64,000 bases of DNA from Halorubrum depositum (GCF_007671725.1 NZ_VCNM01000001.1:806001-870000); one strand, 5' to 3'; shown: positions 11,923 to 55,155, counted from the stretch's first letter. Notes: generated by a model from the sequence alone, not told the origin. Numbers and translations: made by a program.

Positions 11923-12540
11923 ATGATGCTCCCGACCCACGTGCTCGCCGGGATGCTGCTCGCCGCGCCGCTCGTGCGCCTGGCGCCGGAGCTGGCGGCC
12001 GTGGGGTTCGCCGCGGGCTTCCTCGGTGGCCTGTTCCCCGACCTCGACATGTACGTCGGCCACCGGAAGACGCTCCACTACCCCGTCTACTACTCGGCGG
12101 CCGGCGCCGTCGCCCTCGTCGTCGCCCTGGCGGCCCCCTCGGCGGTCACCGTCGCCGCGACCCTGTTCCTCCTCGGGGCGGCGCTCCACAGCGTCTCGGA
12201 CATGTACGGCGGCGGGCTGGAGCTGCGACCGTGGGAGGGGAACTCCGACCGCGCGGTGTACGACCACTACCGGGGACGCTGGATCGCGCCGCGCTCCGGC
12301 GTCAGGTACGACGGCGCGGCCGAGGACCTCGCCCTCTCCGTCGGGCTGTCGCTCCCGCTCATCTACCTGCTCGACGGCCACCTCAGGCTGGCTGTGCTCG
12401 GGACGCTGCTCGTCGCCGCCGTGTACACGGTCCTCCGCCGGCACCTCGCGGAGCTCGCCGCCCTCGTCATTCCACTGGTGCCGGCGGCGCTGACCCCGTA
12501 CCTGCCGGACCGGTACGCCGACGAGGGTCCCTGCGAGTAG
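11923..12540 (+). CDS. YdjM/DUF457-type membrane-bound metal-dependent hydrolase
   Basis: A 205-residue membrane protein of the LexA-binding/YdjM (DUF457) family, annotated as inner-membrane metal-dependent hydrolases. Conserved metal-type residues are in MLPTHVLAGMLL (His near 6), GGLFPDLDMYVGHRKTLHYP (Asp and three His, residues about 37-56) and HSVSDMYGG (His and Asp, about 90). Four to five hydrophobic segments alternate with these motifs, and the C-terminus is hydrophobic. ATG 11923 (or the next codon, 11926) fits the TATA-like box at 11891-11900. The real substrate of this family is not established. Confidence 0.75.
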   Translation: MMLPTHVLAGMLLAAPLVRLAPELAAVGFAAGFLGGLFPDLDMYVGHRKTLHYPVYYSAAGAVALVVALAAPSAVTVAATLFLLGAALHSVSDMYGGGLELRPWEGNSDRAVYDHYRGRWIAPRSGVRYDGAAEDLALSVGLSLPLIYLLDGHLRLAVLGTLLVAAVYTVLRRHLAELAALVIPLVPAALTPYLPDRYADEGPCE

Positions 12541-12553
12541 CGGCTCGGCGAGC

Positions 12554-13858
12554 TCAGTCCGCACCGCCCTCGGTCCCGGCCCCTTCCTCGACCTCCGCGA
12601 GCGCCGAGCGGCGGCTCTCGAAGTACGCGCCGGCCGGGTGGTAGTCGGGCTCGACGCCCGGCGGCTCCGGCGCGACGAGGTCGCCGTCGGCGTCGGCCGG
12701 GAGCCGCTTCTCGTACCAGACGCCGGCGGGTCCGCGGAACAGGTCGGTCCGGACCAGAAAGCGGCGGTGCCACCGCCGGAACCGCGCCGCGGCGTCCGCG
12801 TCGCCGCGCGCGGCCGCCCGCTCCGCGAGCGCCGCCGCCGCCCCGAGCCCCTCCGCGAGCGCCCAGCCGTAGCGGTCCTCGACGAGCGGGGTCCCGTCGG
12901 CCGCGTGGGTGTAGACGAACCCGTTCTCCGCCCAGCCGCGGTCGACGGCGGCGTCGAACAGCTCGGCGGCGCGCTCGTACCAGCTGACCTCGGAACCGGT
13001 GGAGGATCCCTCCGGCCCGTCCGCGTCGTACCGATCGAGGAGCGCGAGGAGCTTCGCCCACTCGACGTGATGGCCCGGCTGGTACCCCGGCGGGCGGAAC
13101 TGATGGCGGGGCTCGTCGGCGTTGTACCCGAAGTCGTGCTCCCACTCGGCCGTGTAATGCTCCCAGAGGAGGCCGTCCGTCTCGGCCGCGAGGTCGACCG
13201 CGACCGCCTCGGCGACGTGGCGCGCCCGGTCGAGATAGCGGCCCTCGCCCGTCGCCTCGTGGGCGGCGAGGTACGCCTCGCAGGCGTGCATGTTCGCGTT
13301 CTGGCCGCGATACGGCTCCAGCTCGGTCCACTCCGCGTCGCAGTCGCTCCGGAGCAGCCCGGCGTCGTCGCGGAGCCGGTCCTCGATCAGCGCGTGGGTC
13401 GCCGCGAGGTCCTCGCGGGCGCCGTCGATCCCGGCGTCCGCGGCGCGGGCGTACGCCAGCAGGACGAACGCGTGACCGTACGCCGACCGGGTGCGGTCGA
13501 CCGGCGTGCCGTCGGCCGCGACGACGAGCCGGTAGCCGCCGTCCTCGCTCCGATGCGCCTCGCGGAGGAACGTCAGTCCGTGTTCCGCGGCGGGGCGACA
13601 CCAGTCCGGGCCGTCCGCGAGGGCGCCGAGCGCGAAGTTGGCGACCGAGCGGCAGGTCGCGACCAGGTGTCGGCGGTCGTCGGTGTAGTGGTCTCCCGTC
13701 TCCGGGTGGAGGAGGCGGTAGCCGCGGTCGGCGAGCGCGTCCGGGTACTGGACGCGCAGCGTCGCGAGCAGCCGCGCCCGGCTCGAACGAGCTCGGTAGC
13801 GGGCGGCCGGTGGCGTCGCGTCGGTCGACGTCGCGTCGGTCGGCGTCGCGTCGGTCAT
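12554..13858 (-). CDS. AGE-family epimerase/isomerase (N-acylglucosamine 2-epimerase or sugar isomerase type)
   Basis: A 434-residue (alpha/alpha)6-barrel protein of the AGE superfamily, which interconverts sugars such as GlcNAc/ManNAc, mannose/fructose or sulfoquinovose. Family signatures include RSAYGHAFVLLAYARA, GQNANMHACEAYLAAHE, YQPGHHVEWAKLLALLDR, ENGFVYTHAADGTPL and DYHPAGAYFESR; the His residues in GHHVEW and DYHPAG are catalytic-site candidates. The first 20 residues carry a threefold TDAT repeat (TDATPTDATSTDAT), mirrored in DNA by GTCGCGTCGGTCG copies. ATG 13858 is preferred over an upstream start with a shadow-like extension. It is divergent from the thioredoxin gene. I cannot separate epimerase from isomerase by sequence alone. 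Confidence 0.8.
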   Translation of the reverse strand: MTDATPTDATSTDATPPAARYRARSSRARLLATLRVQYPDALADRGYRLLHPETGDHYTDDRRHLVATCRSVANFALGALADGPDWCRPAAEHGLTFLREAHRSEDGGYRLVVAADGTPVDRTRSAYGHAFVLLAYARAADAGIDGAREDLAATHALIEDRLRDDAGLLRSDCDAEWTELEPYRGQNANMHACEAYLAAHEATGEGRYLDRARHVAEAVAVDLAAETDGLLWEHYTAEWEHDFGYNADEPRHQFRPPGYQPGHHVEWAKLLALLDRYDADGPEGSSTGSEVSWYERAAELFDAAVDRGWAENGFVYTHAADGTPLVEDRYGWALAEGLGAAAALAERAAARGDADAAARFRRWHRRFLVRTDLFRGPAGVWYEKRLPADADGDLVAPEPPGVEPDYHPAGAYFESRRSALAEVEEGAGTEGGAD

Positions 13859-41419: not shown

Positions 41420-41512
41420 CCCTCCGACAGCAACGATGTATACCGGACTTCGATCAGTTATTTACGAGTGATCGACCGGAGTTTTCGAACCGCGACTCAC
41501 CGACGGTCGATC

Positions 41513-42415
41513 CTACTTCGGCGGCTGCAGGTCTCGCTGGAACTCGTCGAACTGGTCGAGGTCCTCGGGGAGCTCGTACTCGATCTCGCGCTCGTCCTGG
41601 TTGTCGGGGAGCCGACCGTCCTCCAGGTCGGCGGCGACCTCCTCCCAGCCGGGCTTCACGCGGACGCTCCGGGCGGGGGAGCCGACGACGACGTGGTGGT
41701 CGGGCACGTCGCCCTGCACGACCGAGCGCGCGCCGACGACGCTGTTCTCGCCGACTCGGCAGCCAGCCCGCACCATCGCGTCGTAGGTGACGCGCGCGTC
41801 GTCCTCGACGATCGTGTGGAAGTTGCGGACCTCGGTCTGGTCGACGAGGTCGTGGTCGTGGCTGTAGAGGTGGACGCCGTCGGAGACCGACGCGCGGTCG
41901 CCGATCGTCAGCTTCCCGCGGTCGTCGAGGTGGACGTCGTCGTGGATCACGACGTTGTCGCCGACCTCGATGTTGTGGCCGTAGGTGACGGATATCCCCT
42001 TGAAGAAGCGGCAGTTCTCCCCGCACTCGGCGAAGAGGTGGTTGCCGAGCATCTGCCGGAAGCGGAGGGCGAACTCGACGTTGTCGGCCATCGGCGTCGC
42101 GTCGAACTGGCGCCAGAGCCACTGGAGGTGTTTCGAGCGCTGGAAGCGGTCCTCGTCCTTCTCGGCGTAGTACTCCGACTCCAGCGTGGCGTTGCACGGG
42201 TCGTACCCCTGGAGGCGGACGCGCTCGGCTCGCGACACCGACTCCCCGTCCCGCCACGCCTCCCACCGCTCGCGGTCGCCGTGGAGGTCGATCAGGACGT
42301 CGCGAACGACGTCGCAGGTGTCCTCGTCCGAGGAGAGCCGCTCGTCCACCTCGTCGATTAACCCCCGGACCCCTGCCTCTGCGCCGTCGGGGAGGGACAC
42401 GTGTCGCTTTGTCAT
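41513..42415 (-). CDS. Left-handed beta-helix acyltransferase (maltose O-acetyltransferase/LbH type)
   Basis: A 300-residue protein with a helical N-terminal half (residues 1-125) and a C-terminal hexapeptide-repeat left-handed beta-helix (about 130-245). The repeat region includes NIEVGDNVVIHDDVHLDDRG, KLTIGDRASVSDGVHLYSHDHD and CRVGENSVVGARSVVQGDVPD. The catalytic-type His is in LYSHDHD. It should transfer an acyl group, probably acetyl, to a sugar or other hydroxyl or amine. ATG 42415 is favoured by a TATA-like CCCTTTGAGGG about 25 bp upstream. It is divergent from an aldo/keto reductase gene. Confidence 0.85.
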   Translation of the reverse strand: MTKRHVSLPDGAEAGVRGLIDEVDERLSSDEDTCDVVRDVLIDLHGDRERWEAWRDGESVSRAERVRLQGYDPCNATLESEYYAEKDEDRFQRSKHLQWLWRQFDATPMADNVEFALRFRQMLGNHLFAECGENCRFFKGISVTYGHNIEVGDNVVIHDDVHLDDRGKLTIGDRASVSDGVHLYSHDHDLVDQTEVRNFHTIVEDDARVTYDAMVRAGCRVGENSVVGARSVVQGDVPDHHVVVGSPARSVRVKPGWEEVAADLEDGRLPDNQDEREIEYELPEDLDQFDEFQRDLQPPK

Positions 42416-42581
42416 CGGGTCCTCTTCGTCGCCGTCCCTCAAAGGGATTCGGTTGTGCGACGTCTCGACCGAGCGCGCGTCGCGGAACGATCCCGACGGC
42501 GGGCATTTATAAACCGGCGCCGCGGTCCCGCTGCGTGAAGGAGACCGCACTCGCTAAGTGTCCCGATCCCCAATTCGGGGT

Positions 42582-43655
42582 ATGCAGCACCGCGAACTCG
42601 GGAACTCCGGCGTCGAGGTCTCTGAGATCGGTTTCGGCGCGTGGGTCGTCGGCACCGACTGGTGGGGCGACCGCTCGGACGAACAGGCGGTCGAGATGGT
42701 CGAGGCGGCGCTCGACGCCGGCGTCACCTACGTCGACACGGGCGACGTGTACGGCCACGGCGACAGCGAGGAGATCGTCGGGCGGGCGATCGACGGGCGC
42801 CGCGACGAGGTGACGCTCGCGACGAAGATCGGCTACGACTTCTACAACAACCCGCAGGCGGGCCACGGCGAGCTCCCGAAGGAGCTCGACCGCGACTACC
42901 TCGAGACCGCGTTCGAGCGCTCGCTCGACCGGCTCGACACCGACCACGTCGACCTGCTCCAGCTTCACAACGCCAACGTCGACGACGTCACCCCCGAGGT
43001 GCGCGACCTCCTCGCCGAGTGGAAGGCGGACGGCCGCGTCCGCGCGCTCGGCTGGGCGCTCGGCCCCTCGATCGGCTGGCTCGCCGAGGGCGACGCCGCG
43101 GTCGAGTACGAGGAGTTCGACGCGGTCCAGACCGTCTTCAATCTCTTCGAGCAGGAGCCCGGCCGCCACTTCGTCGAGTCTATCCGCGAGACGGGCTCGG
43201 ACACGTCGGTCATCGCCCGCGTCCCGCACTCCTCGGGCCTGCTCAACGAGCAGGTGACGCCCGACACCGTCCTCGAAGACGGGGACCACCGCTCGCACCG
43301 CCCGAAAGAGTGGTACGAGACCGGCTGGGAGAAGGTCGAGGCGATCCGCTTCCTCGAGGAGCCGGACCACGCGGAGGGCACTCGGACGATGGCGCAGGCG
43401 GCGATCCGCTGGCTGCTCGCGCACGACGAGGTCGCCTCCGTGACGCCCACCTTCCGCGACGCGGACGACATCGCGGAGTGGAGCGCCGCGAGCGACGTGC
43501 CGCCGCTCTCCGAGGCCGAGTACGAGCGCGTCGACGAGCTGTACGCGCGGAACTTCGATATCGACCGCGACGACGGGATGGACGTCCTCCGGACCTCCGT
43601 CGATGGCGAGGACATCGAGGCCGCCGGCCTCGACAAGCGCGCCGCGTCGTACTGA
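42582..43655 (+). CDS. Aldo/keto reductase
   Basis: A 357-residue AKR. The N-terminus is MQHRELGNSGVEVSEIGFGA. Active-site candidates are Asp and Tyr in TYVDTGDVYGHGDSEEIVG, Lys in TLATKIGYDFYNN and His in VDLLQLHNANVDD. The C-terminal cofactor segment is ASVTPTFRDADDIAEWSAAS, less canonical than in the 4.9-kb paralog. ATG 42582 is preferred on family alignment. Two TATA-like sequences lie upstream (CGCTAAGTG about 29 bp away; CATTTATAAAC about 75 bp away). Confidence 0.88.
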   Translation: MQHRELGNSGVEVSEIGFGAWVVGTDWWGDRSDEQAVEMVEAALDAGVTYVDTGDVYGHGDSEEIVGRAIDGRRDEVTLATKIGYDFYNNPQAGHGELPKELDRDYLETAFERSLDRLDTDHVDLLQLHNANVDDVTPEVRDLLAEWKADGRVRALGWALGPSIGWLAEGDAAVEYEEFDAVQTVFNLFEQEPGRHFVESIRETGSDTSVIARVPHSSGLLNEQVTPDTVLEDGDHRSHRPKEWYETGWEKVEAIRFLEEPDHAEGTRTMAQAAIRWLLAHDEVASVTPTFRDADDIAEWSAASDVPPLSEAEYERVDELYARNFDIDRDDGMDVLRTSVDGEDIEAAGLDKRAASY

Positions 43656-43939
43656 GACCGAACCCACCGCTTTCGCGTCGAGACCGCAGGACAGCGAGCG
43701 GTCGCGCCCGCGTACGACCACTTTCACTGCGCGACGGAAGCGGCCGTGACGGCGCCGCCGCTCGGCGCGTCGAACGTGGTGGCTCGGTGGGAAACCCTCG
43801 TCACAAGGGGCTCAGTGGGGGTAACACGTCGTCACGGCCACCACGGTCGGTCCTTACTCGCTGGATCGTATAAACTCCCCGCGACGCCGACGACCGCGAG
43901 CCGGTTCGGGGGTTCGCACGGAAAACGGTGGCCGCGGAC

Positions 43940-45907
43940 CTACTCGTTCTCGCCGTCGCCGAACTGCGCGTCGTAGTCGTTCTGGATCTCTATCTTCGTC
44001 CCGCGGCTGATGTCGTCGTAGTCGAACTCTATTCCGTATCGGTCCTGGGTGATCTCGTCGCGGGTCCTGATCTCGCCGGGAGCCACGTCGTCGGGGAACG
44101 GCTGCCGGTTGTAGATCGCCTGCACCTCCCACGCCCGCTCGGCGTCGAGGTCCGCGAAGTCGGCGTCGTACTTCGCCCGACTGATGTTGTCCCGGCTGTG
44201 AGCCGGATCCGACGGGAGCGGCCCGAACTGCGCGTCGTACTCGTTTTGAACCTCGATCGCGGCGTCGCGGTCCAGCTCGGAGAACGGCGCGTCGTACCGG
44301 TCGCCGCTTATCTCGTCGCGGGTCTCGACGTCGGCGGGAACCGCGTTGCCGGCGAACGGCTGCCGGTTGTAGATCGCCTGCACCTCGCCGACCGTCTCGC
44401 TTCCGAGGTCGGCGAAGTCGACGCTGTACTTCGCCCGGGTGATCTCGTTGCGAGTGAACCCCTCGTCGGCGTCAGCGGCGTCGTCCCCGGAACCGTCCGA
44501 GCCGTCCGACGACGTCGACCCCCCGTCGTAGTCGCTCTCGACCGTGACCGAGGCGCCGCTCGTCCCCGTGACGTTGTAGGCGGTTCCGGCTTCGGTGCCG
44601 AGGACGTCGACGCGCAGGCCGATGTCGGTCGCGCCGACCGCGTGGCCGCTGATCGTGACGGTCGCGATCGCGACGCTGCCGTTGTCCGCGGTGTCCGTCG
44701 GCGCGGCCGTGACGTTCACCGCCTTCCCGTCCTCGATGACGGTGATCGCCGTCGTCGCGTCGGACGCGCCGCCTCCCGCGGAGACGTCCGTCACCGTGGC
44801 GTGAGTGACGTCCTTCGACTCGACGCGGAAGTCGTAAGCGCCGACGCCGCCGGACGCGTTCGCGACGACCACGTCGTAGGTCGTCTCGTCGCCGGCGTCG
44901 ACCGTCACGTCGGCGTCACTCGGATCGCCGGTGCCGTTCGGCTCACCCGCCTCGCCGCTCGGGCGGAGCAGCACCGCGGTCTCGGGGATCGGAGCCGATC
45001 CCGCCGCCCCCTCGACGTCGACGATCCCGGTCGCGGAGTCGTTCCCGGTGAAGACGCCGTGGACGTGCGATCCGTGGTCGACCCCGGTCACGTTCACGCC
45101 GCCGAACGCGACGGTCTCGCGGTCGTGTCCCGCGAGCGTCACCTCCCGCGAGGCCGCCGTCTCGTCGGCGTCGAGGGCCCCGTCGCCGTCGACGTCGACT
45201 CCGTACCGGACCGTCCGGGTCGCCTCCAGATCGCCGTCGTTGGTGACCGAGACGGAGACGTTGAACGGCTCTCCCCGCGTCACGTCGCGGGACGCGTTCA
45301 GGTTCGACACCCGGAACGCCGCCGGGTCCGGATTCGGCTCGACGGCGATCGCGGCGCCGGTCGCGGCGGTGACGTCGTACGCGTCGCCGGCGTCGGTGCC
45401 GAGCCCGTCGACGCGCAGTCCGAGATCGGTGGTGCCGGGGGCGTCGCCGCGGACCGTGACGGTCGCGACGGCGACGCTGCCGCCGCCGGCCGCGTCCGTC
45501 GGCGCGGCCGTCAGGTTCGCCGACGAGCCGTCGGCGGCGATCGAGACCCCGGCCGCCTCGTCCGACTGGTTCCCCCGCAGTGAGACGTCCGTTATCGTGG
45601 CCACGCTCGGATCGCCGACGCTGACGACGGCGGCGAGGGCGCCGACGCCGCCGGACGCGTTCGCGACGACCACGTCGTGGGTCGCGGTCTCGCCGACGCG
45701 GACAGTCGCGTCGCTCGGTCCGAGATGGACCGCGGTCTCGGGGGCCGGGGCCGGGTCCTCCTGCTGTGCGAACGGGAGGTCGAGACCGCCGGTGGGGCCG
45801 ACGCCCGCGACCGCCCCGCCGATGCCGCCGATGCCGACCACCGCGATCGCCACGAGGACGGCGACGCCCTTCGCGTTCAGCGTCGCGGAGAGTGCGCCGA
45901 GGTTCAT
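43940..45907 (-). CDS. Membrane-targeted protein with two cohesin-like modules and four novel ~43-residue repeats
   Basis: A 655-residue exported protein. Residues about 13-38 (VAVLVAIAVVGIGGIGGAVAG) form a signal or anchor. Two cohesin-like beta modules follow: about 55-205 and 300-460, each with the VxVGExxTxDVVVANASGGVGA opening and the SVAVATVTVRG or SVAIATVTISG strand typical of cohesins. A CARDB-like segment lies between them. The last 173 residues hold four repeats of about 43 residues with the pattern R-D-x-I-x-x-x-x-Y-x-x-x-F then E-V-Q-x-x-Y-x-x-Q. The upstream gene overlaps by 4 bp and carries a dockerin, its likely partner. The repeats are not a family I know. Confidence 0.75.
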   Translation of the reverse strand: MNLGALSATLNAKGVAVLVAIAVVGIGGIGGAVAGVGPTGGLDLPFAQQEDPAPAPETAVHLGPSDATVRVGETATHDVVVANASGGVGALAAVVSVGDPSVATITDVSLRGNQSDEAAGVSIAADGSSANLTAAPTDAAGGGSVAVATVTVRGDAPGTTDLGLRVDGLGTDAGDAYDVTAATGAAIAVEPNPDPAAFRVSNLNASRDVTRGEPFNVSVSVTNDGDLEATRTVRYGVDVDGDGALDADETAASREVTLAGHDRETVAFGGVNVTGVDHGSHVHGVFTGNDSATGIVDVEGAAGSAPIPETAVLLRPSGEAGEPNGTGDPSDADVTVDAGDETTYDVVVANASGGVGAYDFRVESKDVTHATVTDVSAGGGASDATTAITVIEDGKAVNVTAAPTDTADNGSVAIATVTISGHAVGATDIGLRVDVLGTEAGTAYNVTGTSGASVTVESDYDGGSTSSDGSDGSGDDAADADEGFTRNEITRAKYSVDFADLGSETVGEVQAIYNRQPFAGNAVPADVETRDEISGDRYDAPFSELDRDAAIEVQNEYDAQFGPLPSDPAHSRDNISRAKYDADFADLDAERAWEVQAIYNRQPFPDDVAPGEIRTRDEITQDRYGIEFDYDDISRGTKIEIQNDYDAQFGDGENE

Positions 45908-47232
45908 CGGTCCAACACCTCGTTGAACAGCGCCCGGACGTCGAGGGCGTCCACGTCACCGTCGCCGTTGAAGTCGAACGCGTCCGGGTGGCTCCGGACC
46001 AGCTCGTCGTCCCGGTTCGCGAACATGGCCTCCACGTCGTCGGCGTCGACGTCGCCGTCGCCGTCGACGTCCTCGTAGCGACCGTCCCCGTCCGGGTCGG
46101 TCGGCTGACTCTCGAAGTCGCCTATCGCCTGTCCACCGAAACAGACGGGGTCGCCGCCGCGGACCGGCTCGACGGACCACGGGACGAATTCGACGCCGCC
46201 GTCGACCTCGTCGCCCTTCGGGGCCTCTGCCGGGGTCTCCTCCGCGGCGGGGCCGGTCGGATCGCCCCAGTAGTTACAGGACGCGACCGCGGTCTGCTCC
46301 GACGCGTTCCGGACCCCGAACTCGTCGTTGCCCGCGATGTCGTTCCCGGTGAACGCGTACTCGGGGACGGAATCGCCGAAGCCGTCCGCGACGCCCGACA
46401 GCAGGATCCCGGTCCGGTTGCCGACGATCGCGTTTCCGCGGACGTCTCCGCCGCTGGAGGCGAACTCGATCCCCGGCCCGGCGTTGTTCCGGATGTCATT
46501 CCCGACGACCGTGGCGGACCCCAGGTCGGTCGGCGCGACGAGCCCGATCAGTCGGAGGCCGAACCCGTCGTTGTCGGCGACGGTGTTGTCGACGAACGTC
46601 CCCTCGCCGGTGGCGACGCCGGCGCCGTTCTCCCGCACGGTGCTGCGTCTCAGCTCCGTGACGTGTCCCAGGTCGGTGGACACCGCCGCGTCGCTGTTCC
46701 CGCTCAGCGTGCTCTCGGTTATCGACAGCCGGGTGCCCTCCCCGGGACCGACGCCCACGCCGTTGTCGCTGACGACGGAATCGCGGACCGCGATACGCCC
46801 CTTCGGCCCGCCGCGGATCCCGACGGAGCTGTCGGTGACCGAGACGGCTTCGAGCGCGATCTCGCCGCCCGGGGAACCGACGGAGGTTCCCGCGCCGAAG
46901 TTCGTTATCCGCAGATCGCGGACGGCGGCGCTCTCGTCGCGACCGAGGTCGAACGAGAGGCCGATCCCCGAGCCGTCGCCGGAGATCGCGTGCCCGTTCC
47001 CGTCCAGCGTGACGCCCGGACCGAGGGTGAGACAGTCGCCCTCCGCGTCGAGATCGGCGGTGAGAACGTACTCTCCCGGTTCGGTCAGCGACGCGCATCG
47101 GTCGACCTCCGTCGGCGCGGCGGCCGTCGTGGAGATCGAGGAGAGCCCGACGACCGTCCCCGCTACCACGAGACCGCCTTTCTGAAGTGCTGTTCGGCGC
47201 GATATCTTCTCGTCTGGTCCACCGTCGGTCAT
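45904..47232 (-). CDS. Tat-exported right-handed beta-helix protein with C-terminal dockerin
   Basis: A 442-residue secreted protein. The Tat signal is in ISRRTALQKGGLVVAG (residues about 10-25). The body is a right-handed parallel beta-helix of the NosD/pectate-lyase-like type, with GVTLDGNGHAISGDGSGIGL and many NxxGxxV coils. The last 60 residues form a type I dockerin: two calcium loops DVDGDGDVDADD and DFNGDGDVDALD. It overlaps the cohesin-like gene by ATGA, so the pair is one operon. The minus-strand TATA-like GCTAATAACAAT about 30 bp upstream of ATG 47232 suggests leaderless transcription. Enzymatic activity is not visible. Confidence 0.8.
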   Translation of the reverse strand: MTDGGPDEKISRRTALQKGGLVVAGTVVGLSSISTTAAAPTEVDRCASLTEPGEYVLTADLDAEGDCLTLGPGVTLDGNGHAISGDGSGIGLSFDLGRDESAAVRDLRITNFGAGTSVGSPGGEIALEAVSVTDSSVGIRGGPKGRIAVRDSVVSDNGVGVGPGEGTRLSITESTLSGNSDAAVSTDLGHVTELRRSTVRENGAGVATGEGTFVDNTVADNDGFGLRLIGLVAPTDLGSATVVGNDIRNNAGPGIEFASSGGDVRGNAIVGNRTGILLSGVADGFGDSVPEYAFTGNDIAGNDEFGVRNASEQTAVASCNYWGDPTGPAAEETPAEAPKGDEVDGGVEFVPWSVEPVRGGDPVCFGGQAIGDFESQPTDPDGDGRYEDVDGDGDVDADDVEAMFANRDDELVRSHPDAFDFNGDGDVDALDVRALFNEVLDR

Positions 47233-47256
47233 GAGAGAGTATCGGGGGATAGACCG

Positions 47257-47268
47257 AATTGTTATTAG
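47257..47268 (-). promoter_or_regulatory. TATA-like box of the dockerin/cohesin operon
   Basis: On the minus strand the sequence reads GCTAATAACAAT, centred about 30 bp upstream of ATG 47232. Confidence 0.55.
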
Positions 47269-47451
47269 CTTGCTTCCAGAAATAACAGAGTCTATAACAA
47301 TATCTCGGAGGGCCGAACCGGAACGCGACGCCGCGTCTCGGCGACGCGCGACACCGTGGTGACTCTCGGCGCCGGAGCGGGATCCCGGAGAGACGAGGAG
47401 CATGATACGAACGATTCTCGAACGGCGGACGCCGACGAGCTCGCGGGGGCG

Positions 47452-48657
47452 ATGACGGACGAGTACGAGGTCGTTCGCGGGCTCCCCGACGAGGAGGAGC
47501 TCCTCGGTCTGTTGTGCGAGGCCTTCGGAAACTGGGGAGACGAGGCGTTCCTGCGGTGGAAGTACGACCGGCCCGGCGTCGAGCCGGCGACGGGGTACCA
47601 CGTCGTTCGAAACGGCGAGCTCGCGGCGTTCCGCGGCATGTTCGAGCGCACCATCGAGGGGCCGGGCGGCGGCTACGACTGCCACGTCTGCGGCGACGCC
47701 TGCGTCGCCGAGGCCCACCGCGGCGAGGGGCTCTACTCGCGGATCCGTGACGCGACGGAGTCCGACATCGAACGGAGCGGGAGCGACTTCTGCGGGATCT
47801 TCACCCGGAAGGGCCACATCCCGTTCGAGGTCGGGCTCGACCGTGGGTGGAAGTATCGCACGCTTCCACTGTACCTCCGGGTGCTCTCGCCCGGGAACGT
47901 GATACCGCACTACGCGCGGCTCGTCCTCGACGAGGACGGGACTGCGGCCGACCTCCTCGACCGCCTCGGCGGGAGAGTCACGCTCAGGTCGGGCGGCGAG
48001 TCGCTCCGGCTCGACCGCCTGCTCGGCGAGTCGAAGACCGAGTCGGGGTGGTCCGTTCCGGTCCCCTTCCCCGAGTGGGCGACCACGGCCGCGGTCGAGG
48101 CGGCGGGAACCGACTCGCTCCGCGAGAGCCTGAAGCGCCGGACGCCGATCGGTCGGCCCGGGACGACCGATCGTTCCGCGAGCGCCGCCGACGTCGAGGT
48201 GAGCGTCGAGCGATCGGTCGGAGATGACCTCCTGGAATCGCTGGCGACGCTCTACGTCGAGGCGACGGCCGAGTACGACCTCGCCTTTCGGCGCGAGGCC
48301 GACGACCTCCGTCACCTGCTCGCCCACCCGCGGCTGCTCGGCGTCGTCACGGCGAGGCGGGACGGGACCGTCGTCGGCGCGGCGCCGGTCGCGCTCACCG
48401 AGACGGAAGACACGCTCGAGGCGTGGGTGCTCGACCTCGTCGCCGCCGACGGCGACGTCCGCGACGCGCTGGTTGCGGGGATCGAGGAGGCCGCGATCGA
48501 GCGGGACGCGGACATGGCGCTGCTGCTCTCGGACGCGGACCCCGGGACGGCGTGGGCCCAGATCGATAGACAGGTGCTGATGTGGACGTCGTACGGCGCC
48601 GACACGCGATCGCTCGAAACTGACTCGCTGTTCATGGGGCTCTACGACGTCGTGTGA
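47452..48657 (+). CDS. GNAT-like acetyltransferase (two GNAT-type halves)
   Basis: A 401-residue protein. Its N-terminal half has the acetyl-CoA-loop pattern VAEAHRGEGLYSRIRDATE (about residues 85-103), the Q/RxxGxG/A region of GNAT proteins. A second GNAT-like half begins near residue 245 (VEVSVERSVGDDLLESLATLY) and includes LAHPRLLGVVTARRDGTVVGAA. It ends LFMGLYDVV. ATG 47452 is chosen because upstream residues (from GTG 47356) are low-complexity; the longer start is possible. It opens the glycan region and is transcribed away from the dockerin operon. Its acceptor is unknown, with an amino sugar plausible from context. Confidence 0.75.
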   Translation: MTDEYEVVRGLPDEEELLGLLCEAFGNWGDEAFLRWKYDRPGVEPATGYHVVRNGELAAFRGMFERTIEGPGGGYDCHVCGDACVAEAHRGEGLYSRIRDATESDIERSGSDFCGIFTRKGHIPFEVGLDRGWKYRTLPLYLRVLSPGNVIPHYARLVLDEDGTAADLLDRLGGRVTLRSGGESLRLDRLLGESKTESGWSVPVPFPEWATTAAVEAAGTDSLRESLKRRTPIGRPGTTDRSASAADVEVSVERSVGDDLLESLATLYVEATAEYDLAFRREADDLRHLLAHPRLLGVVTARRDGTVVGAAPVALTETEDTLEAWVLDLVAADGDVRDALVAGIEEAAIERDADMALLLSDADPGTAWAQIDRQVLMWTSYGADTRSLETDSLFMGLYDVV

Positions 48658-48703
48658 CGCCGTCCCCCGCGCGGAGCCGGTTCGGGGATCGACGCTCCGG
48701 CGA

Positions 48704-49690
48704 CTACCGCGACGCCTCGGCCATGGCGCGGAACCACCCCCACGCCGGCAGCACCGTCTCCCTGAACGGGCGGTAGTCGTAGCCGAGCTCCTCGCGCGCC
48801 TTGGCGCTGTCGTAGAAGTGCGTGTCCGTCGCCAGCTCCGCCATCTCGGCGTTGAACGGGAAGATCCGTCGACCGGTCCGGCGGTTCACGACGCCCACGG
48901 CGGGCCCGGCCGCTCTGATCGCGGCCGCCGGGACCGTGATCCGGGGAGCCGACCCGCCGATCTCCTCGGCGATCACCTCGAGGGCCTCCCGGTACCGCAG
49001 GTTCTCGCCCCCGAGGACGTAGTGTTCGCCCGGCTCTCCCTGTTCCATCGCCCGTACGATCCCGGCCGCGACGTCCTCGACGCCGACGAAGCTCGCGCCG
49101 CCGGGGGGATGCGCGAACAGCTTCGGGTCGCTCGCGAGCGCGAAGAACCGTGCGGTGAACCCCTCGTCTCCCGGGCCGAAGATCGACGTCGGGTGCACGG
49201 TGACCGCGTCAAGGCCGCGACTGGTCGCCGCGTCCACGATCCGCTCTGCCGCCGCCTTCGACTGCTGGTAGGCGCCGATCGGGGGCGCCACGTCCGTCTC
49301 GTCAGCGACGCCGTCGGCCCGCCGCGTTCCGGCCGTGCTCGTGAACACGAGGCGCTCGACCCCGGCGTCGAGGCACGCCTCGACGACATTTCGCGTCCCG
49401 ATCTCGTTGACCGCCCGGACGGTCCGCTCGTCGGCGCTCTGTAACCCGGTCCCGGCGAGGTGGTACACCTCGTCGTGACCGTCGACGACCGCTCGCACGG
49501 CCGCTTCGTCGAACACGTCCAACCGCTCCCACCGGACGGCGTCGTCGGACTCGTCGGGCGCCGACGAGCTGTGTCGGGTGGCGGTGACGGTCCCGTTCTC
49601 GTCCCCTTCCTCGTCCGCGAGCCGTTCCAGGAGGTACGAACCGAGGAACCCGCTCGCGCCCGTGACGAGCGCGTCGGCGGCTCCGGTCAT
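48704..49690 (-). CDS. NAD-dependent epimerase/dehydratase (SDR extended)
   Basis: A 328-residue extended short-chain dehydrogenase. The NAD motif is VTGASGFLGSYLLERL (residues 10-25, GxxGxxG), the Ser/Tyr/Lys site is in FTSTAGTRR (Ser) and YQQSKAAAER (YxxxK), and the Asp ligand is near ERLDVFDE. The C-terminal domain reads VLGGENLRYREALEVIAEEIG. Members act as nucleotide-sugar epimerases, dehydratases or steroid-like dehydrogenases. It overlaps the DUF362 gene start-to-stop by 4 bp (49687-49690). It is part of a minus-strand run with DUF362 and a Gfo/Idh/MocA gene. Confidence 0.88.
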   Translation of the reverse strand: MTGAADALVTGASGFLGSYLLERLADEEGDENGTVTATRHSSSAPDESDDAVRWERLDVFDEAAVRAVVDGHDEVYHLAGTGLQSADERTVRAVNEIGTRNVVEACLDAGVERLVFTSTAGTRRADGVADETDVAPPIGAYQQSKAAAERIVDAATSRGLDAVTVHPTSIFGPGDEGFTARFFALASDPKLFAHPPGGASFVGVEDVAAGIVRAMEQGEPGEHYVLGGENLRYREALEVIAEEIGGSAPRITVPAAAIRAAGPAVGVVNRRTGRRIFPFNAEMAELATDTHFYDSAKAREELGYDYRPFRETVLPAWGWFRAMAEASR

Positions 49691-50556
49691 CGGTCCATCA
49701 GCTGCGGCGGCAGCTGATCCCCCGTGACGCGAGCGTACAGCCGGTACCCCGACGTCATCAGCCTCGACGGCGACCCCTCGCTGACCGACTCGTCCGGGAG
49801 CTCGTCGGCCAGCGCGCGGGCGTCGAGGCCGCGAACCCGAGCGGGTCGGTCGTCGCGCGCGGCCCCCCTCGGGAGCGCGTCTCGGTCCAGACCCAGCAGA
49901 TACGCCGTGACCCGTTCGACCTCGAACGGGTCGGCGCTCGCGAGCAGCGCCCGCGTCCGCCGCGGCGCGCCGACGTACGAGTAGGTCGCGTCCAACACCG
50001 CACCGATCGGGTCGGCCGCCGCGGCGAAGGAGTCAACCTCGAAAGCGGTCGGTTCCCGGCTCAACGCGGCCGCCGCGAGACGGTCGAAACAGCCGGCGAG
50101 CGTCGGATCCTCCCGGCGGCGGAGCGCGGGCACGACGAGCGCGTCGTCCAACAGCCGTTCGGGCGCAGTCACGACCGTCTCCTGGTCGTCGACGGAGACC
50201 GTCCGACTCGCCTGCGGCCCGGCGTCGGGGTCGAAGTACTCGACGCCGGACCGCTCGACGAGCCGGTCGTAGCCGAGATACGTCGCGCAGGACGCGTCGT
50301 CGGACCACGCGGTCGCGGCGCGGGCGATCTCGACCCCGTCGACGGCCTCGGCCGCGAGCAGGCGGTCGACGAGGGCCGAGACGGTGTCCGGATTCGTCAC
50401 CGTCCCCGTGCTCGGGTGGTAGGGGTAGTGGAGGTCCGGGACGAGCACGACCCGACCCTCGAACTCGACGTCGGCGTTACCGAGCACCTCGGCGACGCCC
50501 TCGGCGATCGCGTCGGGCTCGCAGTCCGGGAGCCGCGCGCCGTGAACGATCGTCAT
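49687..50556 (-). CDS. DUF362 domain protein
   Basis: A 289-residue protein of the DUF362 type, with VVLVPDLHYPYHPSTGTVTNPDTVSALVDRL (described in parts) near residues 38-68 and the DSxxATxLGY-like SCATYLGYDRLVER. DUF362 is found in proteins near iron-sulfur domains, but no ferredoxin Cys cluster is visible here. Its 3' end overlaps the epimerase gene by 4 bp, and its own ATG lies inside the Gfo/Idh/MocA stop (shared ATGA, 50553-50556). It is likely co-expressed with both, and its role in glycan metabolism is only context-based. Confidence 0.75.
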   Translation of the reverse strand: MTIVHGARLPDCEPDAIAEGVAEVLGNADVEFEGRVVLVPDLHYPYHPSTGTVTNPDTVSALVDRLLAAEAVDGVEIARAATAWSDDASCATYLGYDRLVERSGVEYFDPDAGPQASRTVSVDDQETVVTAPERLLDDALVVPALRRREDPTLAGCFDRLAAAALSREPTAFEVDSFAAAADPIGAVLDATYSYVGAPRRTRALLASADPFEVERVTAYLLGLDRDALPRGAARDDRPARVRGLDARALADELPDESVSEGSPSRLMTSGYRLYARVTGDQLPPQLMDR

Positions 50557-51611
50557 CGCGTCACCTCGATCGGTTCCTCGACCCCCTCGGCCATCCGGTA
50601 CGCCTCCGTCACGAGCTCGACGGCTCGCGCGCCGTCGGCGCCCGTGACGGGCGGCTCGCGTCCCTCCTTCACCGCCGAGACGAACTCCGTCAGCGCGTGG
50701 TAGTGCGCCTGGTAGAAGTACGTCGGCTTGAATATCTCCGGCTTGCGGCCGCGGACCCGGTTCCCGACGTTCTCCAGCGCGGACCGGGCCGCGTGGCCCA
50801 CGAAGTTCGACGGCATGAACTCCTCGCTCGACAGCGAGTCCGCGATCCCGTCGAGGCGCATCCCACCGGTGACGTTCGGCGGGTCCTCCCACTGGAAGAA
50901 GCCGCAGGACAGCGTCGCGGTCGTTCCCGACTCGGCCGAGACGACGAGGGTCGCGGCGTCCTCGTACGGGAGCGTCAGCGTCCGGTCGAGGCTCGCGTGC
51001 TCGACGGTTAGGTCGCCGAAGAACCACGCAAGGACGTCGAGCAGGTGGACGCCGAGATCGAGGAGCGCGCCACCGCCCGTCGCCTCCGGGTCGAGCTGCC
51101 AGCCCGCCGGCGTCTCCCTCGCGGGGGGACTCGAGAACGGGCCGTTGTTGAACCGCCAGATCGAGCAGGTCGGCACGTGACCGATCGACCCCTCGTCGTA
51201 CCGCTCTTTGACCCGGCGGACCTCGGGGCGGTACCGGCTGGTGTGGTCGACGCCAAGGGAGACGCCCGCGCGGTCGGCCGCTCGGAGCATCTCCTCGGCC
51301 TCGTCGGGGTTCCGCGCGAACGGCTTCTCGACGAAGGCGTGACAGCCGGCTTCGACGGCTGCGATCGTCGCCTCCGCGTGCAGGAACGGGGGGAGCGCGA
51401 CGACGACGACGTCCGGGTCGGCGGTCGCGAGCAGCTCCTCGTACTCCTCGTACGCGTTCGTCGCGCCGAGCGCGAGCGCCCGCTCCCGATTCTCGTCGAC
51501 GACGTCGGCGACGGCGACGCGGTCCACGTCGTCGCACGCCAACAGCGTCTGCAGGTGGACGGTCCCGATGTTCCCGACGCCGAAGACGCCCACGTCGACG
51601 GCGTCGGTCAT
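50553..51611 (-). CDS. Gfo/Idh/MocA family oxidoreductase
   Basis: A 352-residue NAD(P)-dependent sugar oxidoreductase. The N-terminal Rossmann motif is DVGVFGVGNIGTVHLQTL (residues 5-22). The catalytic motif EKP is in CHAFVEKPFARN (about residues 90-101). The C-terminal beta-sheet domain has GGGALLDLGVHLLDVL with a conserved His. It probably oxidises or reduces a sugar or nucleotide sugar. It is the 5'-most member of the run of three minus-strand genes ending at 48704. The upstream 315 bp (51612-51927) has no gene. Confidence 0.9.
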   Translation of the reverse strand: MTDAVDVGVFGVGNIGTVHLQTLLACDDVDRVAVADVVDENRERALALGATNAYEEYEELLATADPDVVVVALPPFLHAEATIAAVEAGCHAFVEKPFARNPDEAEEMLRAADRAGVSLGVDHTSRYRPEVRRVKERYDEGSIGHVPTCSIWRFNNGPFSSPPARETPAGWQLDPEATGGGALLDLGVHLLDVLAWFFGDLTVEHASLDRTLTLPYEDAATLVVSAESGTTATLSCGFFQWEDPPNVTGGMRLDGIADSLSSEEFMPSNFVGHAARSALENVGNRVRGRKPEIFKPTYFYQAHYHALTEFVSAVKEGREPPVTGADGARAVELVTEAYRMAEGVEEPIEVTR

Positions 51612-51927
51612 CGGCCGTCGGACGACGCCGGCTTCGGCGGCGGTCCGTCGCTCCGGTTCCGGTCACCCGAGGGGGCGCTCCGCTCCGTGGCTCCGCGAAC
51701 TGTGCTGGGTCGTCCGCCCGGACCGGGGTGTGGACCGCTCGGGTCGGCGCGCGGACCGTCCGCTTCGCCGCGTGGCCTGTTCGGGTTCATCTGTCGTGGA
51801 GTAGCGATCGGACCGTATTTGGTATGCAGTGCCTGTGAGGCGGCGATCGGTCGACAGTCCCGTTATATCGCTGCTAACTCCGCGCGATCGACCTTCGGAG
51901 GCGCGTCGGGAGTCGCCGGTGAGAGAC
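51612..51927. other. Intergenic gap without a gene
   Basis: This 316-bp stretch separates two minus-strand genes. It contains only GC-rich low-complexity ORFs (for example a 60-codon minus-strand frame at 51608-51790 rich in Pro, Arg and Ser) that I do not accept. An AT-rich CGTATTTGGTATGC at about 51818-51831 could be promoter-like. Confidence 0.4.
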
Positions 51928-53037
51928 TCACGGCGAGGAGAAGACCGAGCCGCGACGGCGGAACAGATCCTCGTTCTCTCGGACCGCCGCGTCGACCGAG
52001 CCGGTGACGTCGGCCCGTTCGACGATGTCGACGATGAGCGCCGTCAGGTTACACTTGTCAGCGAGGAACTCGCGCCGCTTGCGCTCCCACTCCGCCGCCG
52101 TGTCGTCCCTCGTGAGCAGCTCCTCGGCGGTCGAGACGACCGAGTCGAACTCGGAGAAGTTGTAGACGAGCCCGGCCCGTTCCAGCTCCTTGAAGTTCCC
52201 CATGTCGTCGTCGCCGACGAAGGAGTTCGAGCGGATCCCGGGCGTGCCGAGGAGCGCGGCCTCGGTGATCATCGTCTGCGTGTCGGCGATGAGCAGCTCG
52301 GCCTCCGCGAGCGCCTCGTGCATCAGGGCCGGATGCGCGTCGTACGGCTCCGCCGCGCTCTCGCCGACGTCGAGCGCGCCCGTCTCGTCGGAGACGAACA
52401 CCCTCGCGTGCTCGGAGAGCCGGGCAATCAGCTCCTCTTTCTGGGCCGGCGTGAATCCCCGCCGACCGACGTCGTGGTGGCCGTTGAACGCGTTGAACCG
52501 GACGAGAACGAACGGGTCGTCGCCGACGCCGAGCTCCTCTCGGACCGTCCCCGTGCTCGCGTAGACGTCCGGGTGGAGGTACGCCGTCTCCTTCAGACCG
52601 GTGAACGCGTAGTGTTTCGGTCCGAGGTTCCGCGTGAACGCGTCGGGAGTGAGGAACGCCTCCACGAACGGGGACATGGCGACGTGACGCCACGCCATCG
52701 GCTCCGAGTCGGTCACCGAGACCGCGGGCGTCCGCGAGACCGCGCCGGCAAACGCCGAGTAGAGACCCATCCCGAAGACGAGATCGAGGTCCTCTTTCTG
52801 GAGAATTCGGTAGATGTTTCGCAGGTGGCTCGGAAGCTGGAGGAACAGGTTTCGCTTCGTTTCGTCGCGGGTGGCGTACCGGTAGTGGTTGATGCCGAAG
52901 TACTCTAGGAGGTCCAGCGCGCACCCGTCGTCGCGAGCGAACACGACTGTCTCGTGGCCCCGCTCTTCCAGTTCCCCTATCGCGTTACGGTACAGGTGGA
53001 CGTGCGCGGGGGTGTTGGTGAATATGCCGACTCGCAT
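51928..53037 (-). CDS. DUF354 family protein (glycosyltransferase/2-epimerase fold)
   Basis: A 369-residue protein. The N-terminus MRVGIFTNTPAHVHLYRN and the LEYFGINHYRYATRDETKRN region match archaeal DUF354 proteins, which share the GT-B fold of UDP-GlcNAc 2-epimerase and related glycosyltransferases. Other family pieces are VFGMGLYSAFAGAVSRTPAVS, LGPKHYAFTGLKETAYLHP, LVRFNAFNGHHDVG and LIADTQTMITEAALLGTPGIRS (donor-site-like). ATG 53037 is favoured because it begins the first strand; the frame extends upstream to 53271, but that part looks unlike protein. Its function in glycan synthesis is likely, its reaction is unknown. Confidence 0.8.
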   Translation of the reverse strand: MRVGIFTNTPAHVHLYRNAIGELEERGHETVVFARDDGCALDLLEYFGINHYRYATRDETKRNLFLQLPSHLRNIYRILQKEDLDLVFGMGLYSAFAGAVSRTPAVSVTDSEPMAWRHVAMSPFVEAFLTPDAFTRNLGPKHYAFTGLKETAYLHPDVYASTGTVREELGVGDDPFVLVRFNAFNGHHDVGRRGFTPAQKEELIARLSEHARVFVSDETGALDVGESAAEPYDAHPALMHEALAEAELLIADTQTMITEAALLGTPGIRSNSFVGDDDMGNFKELERAGLVYNFSEFDSVVSTAEELLTRDDTAAEWERKRREFLADKCNLTALIVDIVERADVTGSVDAAVRENEDLFRRRGSVFSSP

Positions 53038-53270
53038 GCTGGTTAGGGTGCCTACGGCGCTTTCGGGTATAGTTACGAAGAATCTACCGCCGGTCGAATA
53101 GGCGTTGGCACCGCCACCGCTGAAGCGGAAGCCGGCGATCGAGGAGCCCTGCGACTGGATATCCGTCTCGCGCGCGACCGGTTCGATCGCCGGGAGACGG
53201 TCGCTGACGGACCGTCCGCCGTCCGGTAGGACAGACATAACAAAAGCCGCCGAGCGGTTGTCCCCTAGCA

Positions 53271-54845
53271 ATGAAGCGACGGGCCCTCCTCGGATCCCTC
53301 GCGATCGGCTGTGGCGCTTCTCTCGCCGGCTGCGGCGGCCGAGACGACTCTATCGATACGTCGAGGGAGCCGTCGAGAGACCGGTCGGACGCGGAGCCGA
53401 GCGAGGAACAGACGGAATGGGAGACGCTGCGGGAGCGGTTCGGTTTCGAAGAGCGAGTGGACGCCGTCGACGACCTCGAATGGGACCCGAACGGGTTGTT
53501 CCCCATCGACGACTCCCTGGTCGAGAGTTTCGAACGGGACGTCCTCGTCGAGGTGCCGCCGGGAGAGTACAAGATCCTGGAGCCGATAGAGGGCGAGGGC
53601 GTGTCCAACTGGGGGGTCCGCGGAGTCGGCGAGGATCGAACGGACGTGCGGTTCACGACCAACGAGGGTTCTCGAGTGGATTTCAAGCTGCTGGCCGCGA
53701 GCGACGTGCTCCTCGAGAACTTCGCGTTCGACCAGGGCGACCGGTTCGACCGCTCGATGGGGATGACGTTCTTCGTCGAGGACAACCTCCGCATCCGCAA
53801 CGTCGAAAAAGCCGGTGCGAATCCGACGGAGAACCCGACCGGCGTCAGCGCGCTCGCCTTGAACGTCACCGACCCGAACGGGTCCGCCGTCGTGGACACC
53901 CTCGTGCGAACGGGGCCGCAGGAGTTCCTCCCCTATCCGCGGAACGAACTCTGCGTCTTCTCCGGACGGAGCCACCGGGGGACGGTCACGTACCGAAACC
54001 TCGACATCCGCAACGCCGGAGAGAACGGGGTCTACGCGTCGAAGTGTCCCGGAGACGTCCACGTCGAAGGCGGATTCTACAAGAACAACCGAAACGACGG
54101 CGTCCGCATCTCCGGAGACGGGTCGTACATCAGCGGCGCGACCGTCGTCATCGACTCCGACGACTTCCACCCGCAGAACCGAGGCGTGGAAGGAAACATG
54201 CGCGGGATCCGGATGCAGTCCGGCAATAAGGGGCTGACCGGTGGCGTCATCGAGGACACCACCTTGGAGCTTCGCTCGACCTTCCGGACGCAGTCGTTGG
54301 TACACATCGCGCACAACCAGGGCGGGATGGTGCTGCGCGACTCCGAGCTGAAGAACTGGACGGACCACTTCTCGTTCCGGGCGATCGCACCCTCCGAGTA
54401 CGTCGACGAACCGTGGGGCGTCACGTTGGAGAACGTCCGGATCGAGGAGCACGGGGGGTTCGGATCGGCGCTCAAGATAGACAGCCGACCGAACTCGGTC
54501 CTTCGAGACGTGACCGTCGAAACGCCCCGGGAGTTCGGTCTCCGTCACGGGATCACCGTCGTCGACAGCGAGGGGACCGTCTTCGAGGACGTGACGATCG
54601 ATACGAACGGGATCCCGCTCAGGATCGAACGGCCGTCGATACCGGTCGACGACTACTCCGTCGAGTTCAGGGGCACCAACGAGTTCAACATGCGTCGAAA
54701 CTTCGGTCTCGACGGGTCGCTCGACCTGCCGATCGGCGGAGACCGGACCGTGTTCCCGTTCCGAGACGCCGGCGAGGACGTGAGCGCGCTCCTCGTTACC
54801 GGGGTGGAGGACGACCGACTCAGTTTCCGCCAGGTGCGCGAGTAA
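53271..54845 (+). CDS. Lipoprotein with right-handed beta-helix domain
   Basis: A 524-residue lipoprotein. Signal LLGSLAIGCGASLAGC has its lipobox Cys at 21, followed by an acidic linker (about residues 25-60). From about 90 on it is a right-handed parallel beta-helix with PPGEYKIL, VTYRNLDIRNAGENGVYASK, GFYKNNRNDGVRIS and GVTLENVRIEEHGG. The same VTYRNL-x-I-x-NA-x-E-x-G-x-YA-x-K pattern occurs in the 1,074-residue neighbour, so the two are paralogs. It is probably a surface polysaccharide-binding or -cleaving protein. It starts 233 bp from the divergent DUF354 gene. No catalytic residues are clear. Confidence 0.8.
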   Translation: MKRRALLGSLAIGCGASLAGCGGRDDSIDTSREPSRDRSDAEPSEEQTEWETLRERFGFEERVDAVDDLEWDPNGLFPIDDSLVESFERDVLVEVPPGEYKILEPIEGEGVSNWGVRGVGEDRTDVRFTTNEGSRVDFKLLAASDVLLENFAFDQGDRFDRSMGMTFFVEDNLRIRNVEKAGANPTENPTGVSALALNVTDPNGSAVVDTLVRTGPQEFLPYPRNELCVFSGRSHRGTVTYRNLDIRNAGENGVYASKCPGDVHVEGGFYKNNRNDGVRISGDGSYISGATVVIDSDDFHPQNRGVEGNMRGIRMQSGNKGLTGGVIEDTTLELRSTFRTQSLVHIAHNQGGMVLRDSELKNWTDHFSFRAIAPSEYVDEPWGVTLENVRIEEHGGFGSALKIDSRPNSVLRDVTVETPREFGLRHGITVVDSEGTVFEDVTIDTNGIPLRIERPSIPVDDYSVEFRGTNEFNMRRNFGLDGSLDLPIGGDRTVFPFRDAGEDVSALLVTGVEDDRLSFRQVRE

Positions 54846-55155
54846 CCGAGGCGGGTCTGGCGCGCGCGGATCGCAGTCCGTTATTGTCGGCTTATTAAAC
54901 TGAACGCCGAACTACCGCTCTCAGTTTATTTGATTTCTGTCTGACTTTTCCCCGGCCCCTGAGACGTTTTTCGACCCGTCTCAGACGTTAATTATCCATT
55001 AACAGCCCCAGAAACCGCTATTTCTGTACCTGCCAAAACATCCATACAACGATGAATATCATTCCAGTATTAATGAACTTCGGAGACATTCACGTAACTC
55101 TAAATATATAAGATAAGAAACAGTTATTAGTGGTAATTCCTGATTAACAGTCGCG
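54846..55155. promoter_or_regulatory. AT-rich intergenic region with hairpin and strong TATA element
   Basis: This gap between the two beta-helix genes is markedly AT-rich. A perfect 8-bp inverted repeat CTGAGACG/CGTCTCAG (54959-54966 and 54977-54984, 10-base loop) may terminate the lipoprotein transcript. The TATA-like TAAATATATAAG (55101-55112) about 45-50 bp before ATG 55156 would give a leader of roughly 20 bases for the next gene. No gene fits here. Confidence 0.55.

Follow-up and report, generated by a model that had tools for sequence, protein, structure and literature searches.

Dockerins are well established as cohesin-binding domains, and one archaeal pair, the cohesin (2xdh) and dockerin of Archaeoglobus fulgidus, involves no cellulosome. 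In ANME archaea, proteins have been described that combine a dockerin with up to five cohesins, their function being unknown (PMC9012536). In haloarchaea, dockerins found on a mannanase and on a lyase have been called substrate-binding (PMC10963439, PMC13260240); cohesins go unmentioned in these two papers, which are the ones we found on haloarchaeal dockerins, and Peer et al. 2009 may mention them. The words "dockerin" and "cohesin" are both absent from the main text of a study that compared how haloarchaea use cellulose (PMC10267330).

Here, we analyzed two adjacent genes, P0002 and P0001, in a window of 64,000 nucleotides from Halorubrum depositum (NZ_VCNM01000001.1:806001-870000). We think it likely that they encode a matched cohesin-dockerin pair and that this pair is one instance of a system that extends across the haloarchaea.

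The P0002-P0001 locus

Both genes lie on the minus strand. P0002 (45904..47232) is an open frame of 442 aa with an SRRTALQ twin-arginine motif, and its product is a putative secreted beta-helix protein bearing a dockerin. In Pfam it matches PF13229 (1.4e-12), NosD (1.2e-9) and PF00404 (29.1 bits). The right-handed, NosD-type beta-helix (PF13229 / PF05048) covers residues ~84-310 (46303..46983), and the dockerin occupies residues 370-442 (45907..46125), with PF00404 aligned over residues 386-439 and scoring well above its cut-off of 22.9 bits. Both calcium loops (46036-46071 and 45940-45975) are canonical and complete, DVDGDGDVDADD and DFNGDGDVDALD, and form two F-hand repeats with ligands at positions 1, 3, 5, 9 and 12. 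In addition, A3, a profile made from the dockerins of loci that carry P0001-like modules, matched the solved CelS dockerins (2mte, 1daq) at 4e-9 when compared to the PDB. Judged by its sequence, then, the C terminus of P0002 is a true type I dockerin, as an earlier note on this DNA had claimed.

P0001 (43940..45907) encodes 655 aa and would be a two-cohesin surface scaffold. Its start overlaps the P0002 stop by 4 bp (ATGA at 45904-45907), an operon-like arrangement that bears out the two-gene operon proposed earlier. A hydrophobic segment at residues ~13-36 (45800..45871) reads as a signal peptide or a signal anchor; the membrane-type N terminus that had been suggested holds as far as hydrophobicity goes. 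The segment is followed by a first cohesin module (residues 56-192, 45332..45742), an Ig-like CARDB spacer (residues 194-300, 45008..45328; Z 12.4 to CARDB 3idu), a second module (residues 309-457, 44537..44983) and four C-terminal repeats of ~43 aa each (43958..44455), which form eight helices according to an alignment (A4) and the structural model. The CARDB domain and the repeats are additions to the earlier description. With a hydrophobic N terminus at one end and the helical repeats, a putative surface-binding region, at the other, P0001 carries features that may serve surface attachment at both ends.

The 43-aa repeat matched no known family, and a PDB sequence search returned no match. 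It also occurs in secreted or membrane-tethered haloarchaeal proteins that lack cohesins (L043, L046, L047, L126-L128). The pair is surrounded by surface-polysaccharide genes (window positions 41500-54850), its neighbors including an epimerase, a GFO/IDH/MocA oxidoreductase, a weak glycosyltransferase match, a hexapeptide acyltransferase and a second beta-helix protein.

The predicted fold of the P0001 modules

P0001 has no significant match in Pfam or NCBIfam, cohesin models included, and neither these libraries nor phmmer searches against the PDB were sufficient to call its modules cohesins; in this genome PF00963, the Pfam cohesin family, finds a single other cohesin. Confirming the modules therefore took more than sequence models. 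The AlphaFold2 model of P0001 has a mean pLDDT of 84.9, with values mostly at 90-98 and a few lower blocks in module 1, and residues 56-192 superpose on cohesin 6kgf over 129 residues at 2.2 A (Z 15.4) and on the A. fulgidus cohesin with a Z of 14.2. A homologous module at another haloarchaeal locus (L067) behaved in the same way: cohesins made up 49 of its 50 best Foldseek matches in the PDB and its 46 best VIA matches (Z 15.4). Module 1 is thus predicted by the model to have the cohesin (jelly-roll-like) fold across the whole domain. Module 2 is taken as a cohesin because it is 57% identical to module 1, the one that the fold search matched, and it shows a similar strand order in the model; P0001 would therefore have the two cohesins of a multi-cohesin scaffoldin, the second by identity.

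The call was decided by single-domain cohesin matches and the VIA alignment. In fact, when the whole 655-residue model is submitted to Foldseek, long multi-Ig chains head the list because several domains align simultaneously. Big_2, MG2 and T-cell receptor readings appeared as weak sequence matches only and were set aside because structural comparison puts cohesins on top; a match to DUF7151 fell below cut-off. Thus, the possibility that the modules have another fold, named earlier as the outcome that would speak against the proposal, was checked and the cohesin fold was returned. The claim of two cohesin-like modules stands by predicted fold for one and by identity for the other, sequence models being insufficient on their own.

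The distance of these modules from recognized cohesins is a property of the family. Across the order to which H. depositum belongs, 392 genomes supplied relatives for a 76-row alignment of the module (A2), whose profile, searched against all PDB sequences at E<=1, gave four matches, all of them cohesins and all weak (0.043-0.18). PF00963 matched only 2 of the 76 members, and weakly (E<=0.01). With P0001 itself unmatched by PF00963, the family is a divergent cohesin branch that Pfam largely misses.

Dockerins and modules across haloarchaea

The modules and the dockerin type are strongly associated across the class. Among the 392 genomes, 140 carry both the module and an A3-type dockerin, 9 the module alone, 14 the dockerin alone and 229 neither. 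The resulting odds ratio is 254, a value that owes something to the design of the profile, since A3 was built from dockerins of module-bearing loci; it ties these cohesin and dockerin types to each other and not dockerins in general to the module. With the independent PF00404 model of Pfam the odds ratio is 6.2 (p 1e-15, a value which, like the other p-value given here, is inflated by shared ancestry of the genomes and not to be taken literally); the module is absent from 42 of the 126 PF00404-positive genomes, some of which have PF00963 cohesins instead. Within Halorubrum (32 genomes), all 7 genomes with strong A3-type dockerins are among the 9 that have the module (p 1e-5).

The association extends to gene order. 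In the Halorubrum sample, 24 of 29 modules have a dockerin no more than 5 kb away. When dockerin ORFs were fetched, a module gene was found directly downstream on the same strand in 46 of 66, and when module loci were fetched by similarity to P0001 alone, the module ORF itself or one close by encoded a dockerin in 32 of 36, and no dockerin lay within several kb in the other 4. The usual order is that of P0002 and P0001, a dockerin gene and then a module gene directly downstream. A search of a named genome collection with P0001 alone gave nothing; a tighter module alignment did match.

The partners are varied. Dockerins are carried by Malectin/PKD proteins, PQQ propellers, beta-helices, a subtilase, PhoX and a nucleotidase, and CARDB and PKD spacers are frequently interspersed with the modules. 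Many haloarchaeal proteins unite cohesins with a dockerin and in this resemble adaptor scaffoldins; in Haloarcula pellucida (L041), for example, a dockerin gene, two cohesin-plus-dockerin genes and a gene for three cohesins and four repeats stand in a row. Two haloarchaeal genomes have runs of at least 12 PF00963-recognized cohesins interleaved with dockerins (G264:C1:77000-110300 and G087:C1:470000-487500).

A search for more dockerins in H. depositum, suggested by the earlier note, brought the number of Pfam-level dockerin genes to four with P0002, and each of the four adjoins a cohesin gene or its remains. At L006, a metallophosphatase-dockerin gene overlaps by 4 bp a following cohesin gene, which is of the PF00963 type and has a hydrophobic C-terminal tail. 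At L007, a P0002 paralogue (52% identical) precedes a 98-codon ORF (L007:7183-7476) in which a P0001-like N terminus is fused to the last repeat; by its sequence, this stub is what remains of a cohesin gene after loss of the central part. The dockerin gene beside it is intact and has a low GC3 (0.58). At L008, the gene of a PKD/CARDB dockerin protein is followed by a truncated cohesin module fused in frame to an Mrr-type restriction endonuclease domain, and a C-terminal repeat and a dockerin have left remnants upstream (L008:6794-7762 and 12380-12826). The P0002 dockerin shares 56% identity with that of L007, 65% with that of L008 and 29% with that of L006; the first two may therefore have the same partner as P0002. 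None of the four dockerin proteins, two beta-helices, a metallophosphatase and a PKD/CARDB protein, is a plant-polysaccharide enzyme, and for this reason we do not file the window pair as a cellulosome. As far as searched, the earlier idea of a cellulosome-like assembly that lacks cellulase agrees with this genome. It does not extend to the wider system, in which other haloarchaea do have cellulases.

In fact, enzyme clusters appeared among five dockerin-rich genomes that we examined. In one of them (L115/L116; L115:976-7431, G368:C23:284000-323000), a single protein joins a GH5 cellulase domain to eight tandem modules; its gene is followed by a one-module gene and then by dockerin genes, with ~14 dockerin ORFs in 38 kb that include GH5, GH10 and PL14 domains. 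Counted from the first methionine, ten of the encoded proteins (1755, 258, 759, 589, 741, 577, 592, 598, 835 and 490 aa) equal in length the Table 1 entries for a Natronoglomus mannanivorans cluster (PMC10963439). On the strength of these lengths the genome is almost certainly N. mannanivorans. The 1755-aa protein is annotated there as a GH5/CBM6 endoglucanase and the second as an S-layer glycoprotein; from their sequences, and with the species almost certainly the same, the two would be a scaffoldin made of GH5 plus eight cohesins and a cohesin anchor. The one-module protein resembles PGF-CTERM below cut-off (15.9 vs 24.5 bits).

A second cluster (L112/L113; G174:C23:1-40000) encodes, at a contig edge, a GH5 protein carrying five or more modules; a one-module protein accompanies it, and GH5, GH9 and GH81 domains occur among its ~15 dockerin ORFs. 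The cluster fits the description of N. cellulositropha in PMC10963439. The third genome (G003, 2.7 Mb or 2,723,120 bp), putatively Halococcoides cellulosivorans HArcel1, is archaeal and contains 70 dockerin domains, with a string of several consecutive GH5/GH10 dockerin genes at L117. Dockerin-bearing polysaccharide enzymes are thus present in all three. The modules of these clusters appear to be a diverged version of the window's cohesin family: a profile of 18 of them (A8) aligned with A2 at 99.3% and matched the Ruminococcus cohesin 5lxv in the PDB at 3e-4, and PF00963 recognizes none of the 18. Taken together, the clusters look like an undescribed archaeal cellulosome.

A putative surface assembly and its relatives

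How would the window pair operate? We envision that, after export, P0001 stays on the cell surface through the hydrophobic segment at its N terminus, the helical repeats at its C terminus or both, displaying two predicted cohesins separated by the CARDB spacer. P0002 could leave the cell by the Tat route, as its motif suggests, after which its dockerin would fold around two calcium ions and plug into a P0001 cohesin, probably in a calcium-dependent manner. With two sockets for the three dockerins of matching type that the genome encodes, P0001 might hold two clients simultaneously, among them the L007 paralogue, whose own neighboring cohesin gene has been reduced to a stub. At the surface, the beta-helix may act on or bind polysaccharide, own or foreign, a guess prompted by the surface-polysaccharide genes that surround the pair. 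In the wider system, the parts would be dockerin-only clients, cohesin-plus-dockerin adaptors, multi-cohesin scaffoldins and single-cohesin anchors.

Other explanations were weighed against this proposal. Cohesin-like folds are found beyond dockerin binding, in TMEM132 (PMC6030884, as far as its accessible part goes) and, by structural match, in the CLIPPER domain 9ifr and Thermus TTHA1873, so the modules could be adhesion or spacer domains whose genes travel with dockerin genes simply because both encode secreted surface proteins. Their frequent mixing with CARDB and PKD domains agrees with this, as does the model of a linked chain from L067, a stand-in for the complex in which a dockerin is continued, across one stop codon, into the cohesin of the in-frame gene that follows: each domain folds well, but with a pTM of 0.58 no confident docking is predicted. 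However, domains of ~135 aa and ~70 aa adjoin each other far beyond chance, mostly as a dockerin gene and then a module gene, cohesin remnants adjoin the other dockerin genes of this genome, and spacers leave unexplained why eight tandem modules stand beside a run of dockerin enzymes. We find this explanation unlikely.

A pairing that is real but crossed, with P0001 binding the dockerins of other genes and P0002 binding elsewhere, for example to the PF00963-type cohesin of L006, is suggested by the presence of four dockerin genes and by the closeness of the L007 and L008 dockerins to that of P0002. Yet the L006 dockerin is a distant relative with its own adjacent cohesin, and for P0002 the most straightforward cognate is its operon partner; crossing strikes us as quite unlikely. 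Finally, the dockerins could bind a polysaccharide substrate, as the literature has interpreted them (PMC10963439, PMC13260240), leaving P0001 an unrelated surface protein. But these papers mention no cohesin and, in their accessible parts, give no binding test of the dockerin domain, the same enzyme clusters hold multi-cohesin proteins, and dockerins otherwise bind cohesins, which makes substrate binding highly improbable.

Taken alone, the matched pair of the window would add one more to the archaeal cohesin-dockerin pairs; the unrecognized cohesin family and the enzyme clusters add interest. A divergent cohesin family lying beside haloarchaeal dockerins is a candidate for their missing partner, a question that is testable with two small recombinant proteins. 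We lean toward a broader view in which haloarchaea build surface complexes with cohesins that the models miss, species that degrade cellulose and mannan (Natronoglomus, probably Natronobiforma, Halococcoides) assemble true cellulosomes, and the window pair belongs to a non-cellulolytic branch. If this is true, these would be the first archaeal cellulosomes, functioning in near-saturated salt, and published clusters for cellulose and mannan degradation become candidates for them. The pairs could also provide salt-tolerant modules for protein engineering, and profiles A2 and A8 can annotate surface proteins that are now named hypothetical or S-layer glycoprotein.

How does the system compare with those already described? 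The A. fulgidus pair is alike in being archaeal, in lacking a cellulosome and in the fold of its cohesin. P0001 differs by its two cohesins, its CARDB spacer and its helical repeats, by ~18% identity to 2xdh and by its halophilic host. The ANME proteins were found with standard models, whereas the haloarchaeal family is largely invisible to Pfam and comes with enzyme clusters. In the Natronoglomus mannanivorans clusters, where ten protein lengths coincide, the cohesins went unnoticed in the published annotation. The bacterial cellulosome (Clostridium CipC/CipA) shares the cohesin fold (1g1k, 1ohz, 1aoh) and the type I, two-loop dockerin. In contrast to it, the window pair comes without an enzyme of a known glycoside hydrolase family, its cohesins escape PF00963, and the haloarchaeal proteins that we inspected have PGF-CTERM-like tails or helical repeats where the bacterial system uses SLH. 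Even so, relatives in other haloarchaea likewise have gene clusters for a scaffoldin, an anchor and dockerin enzymes, and the Natronoglomus scaffoldin departs from its bacterial counterparts by carrying a GH5 domain itself.
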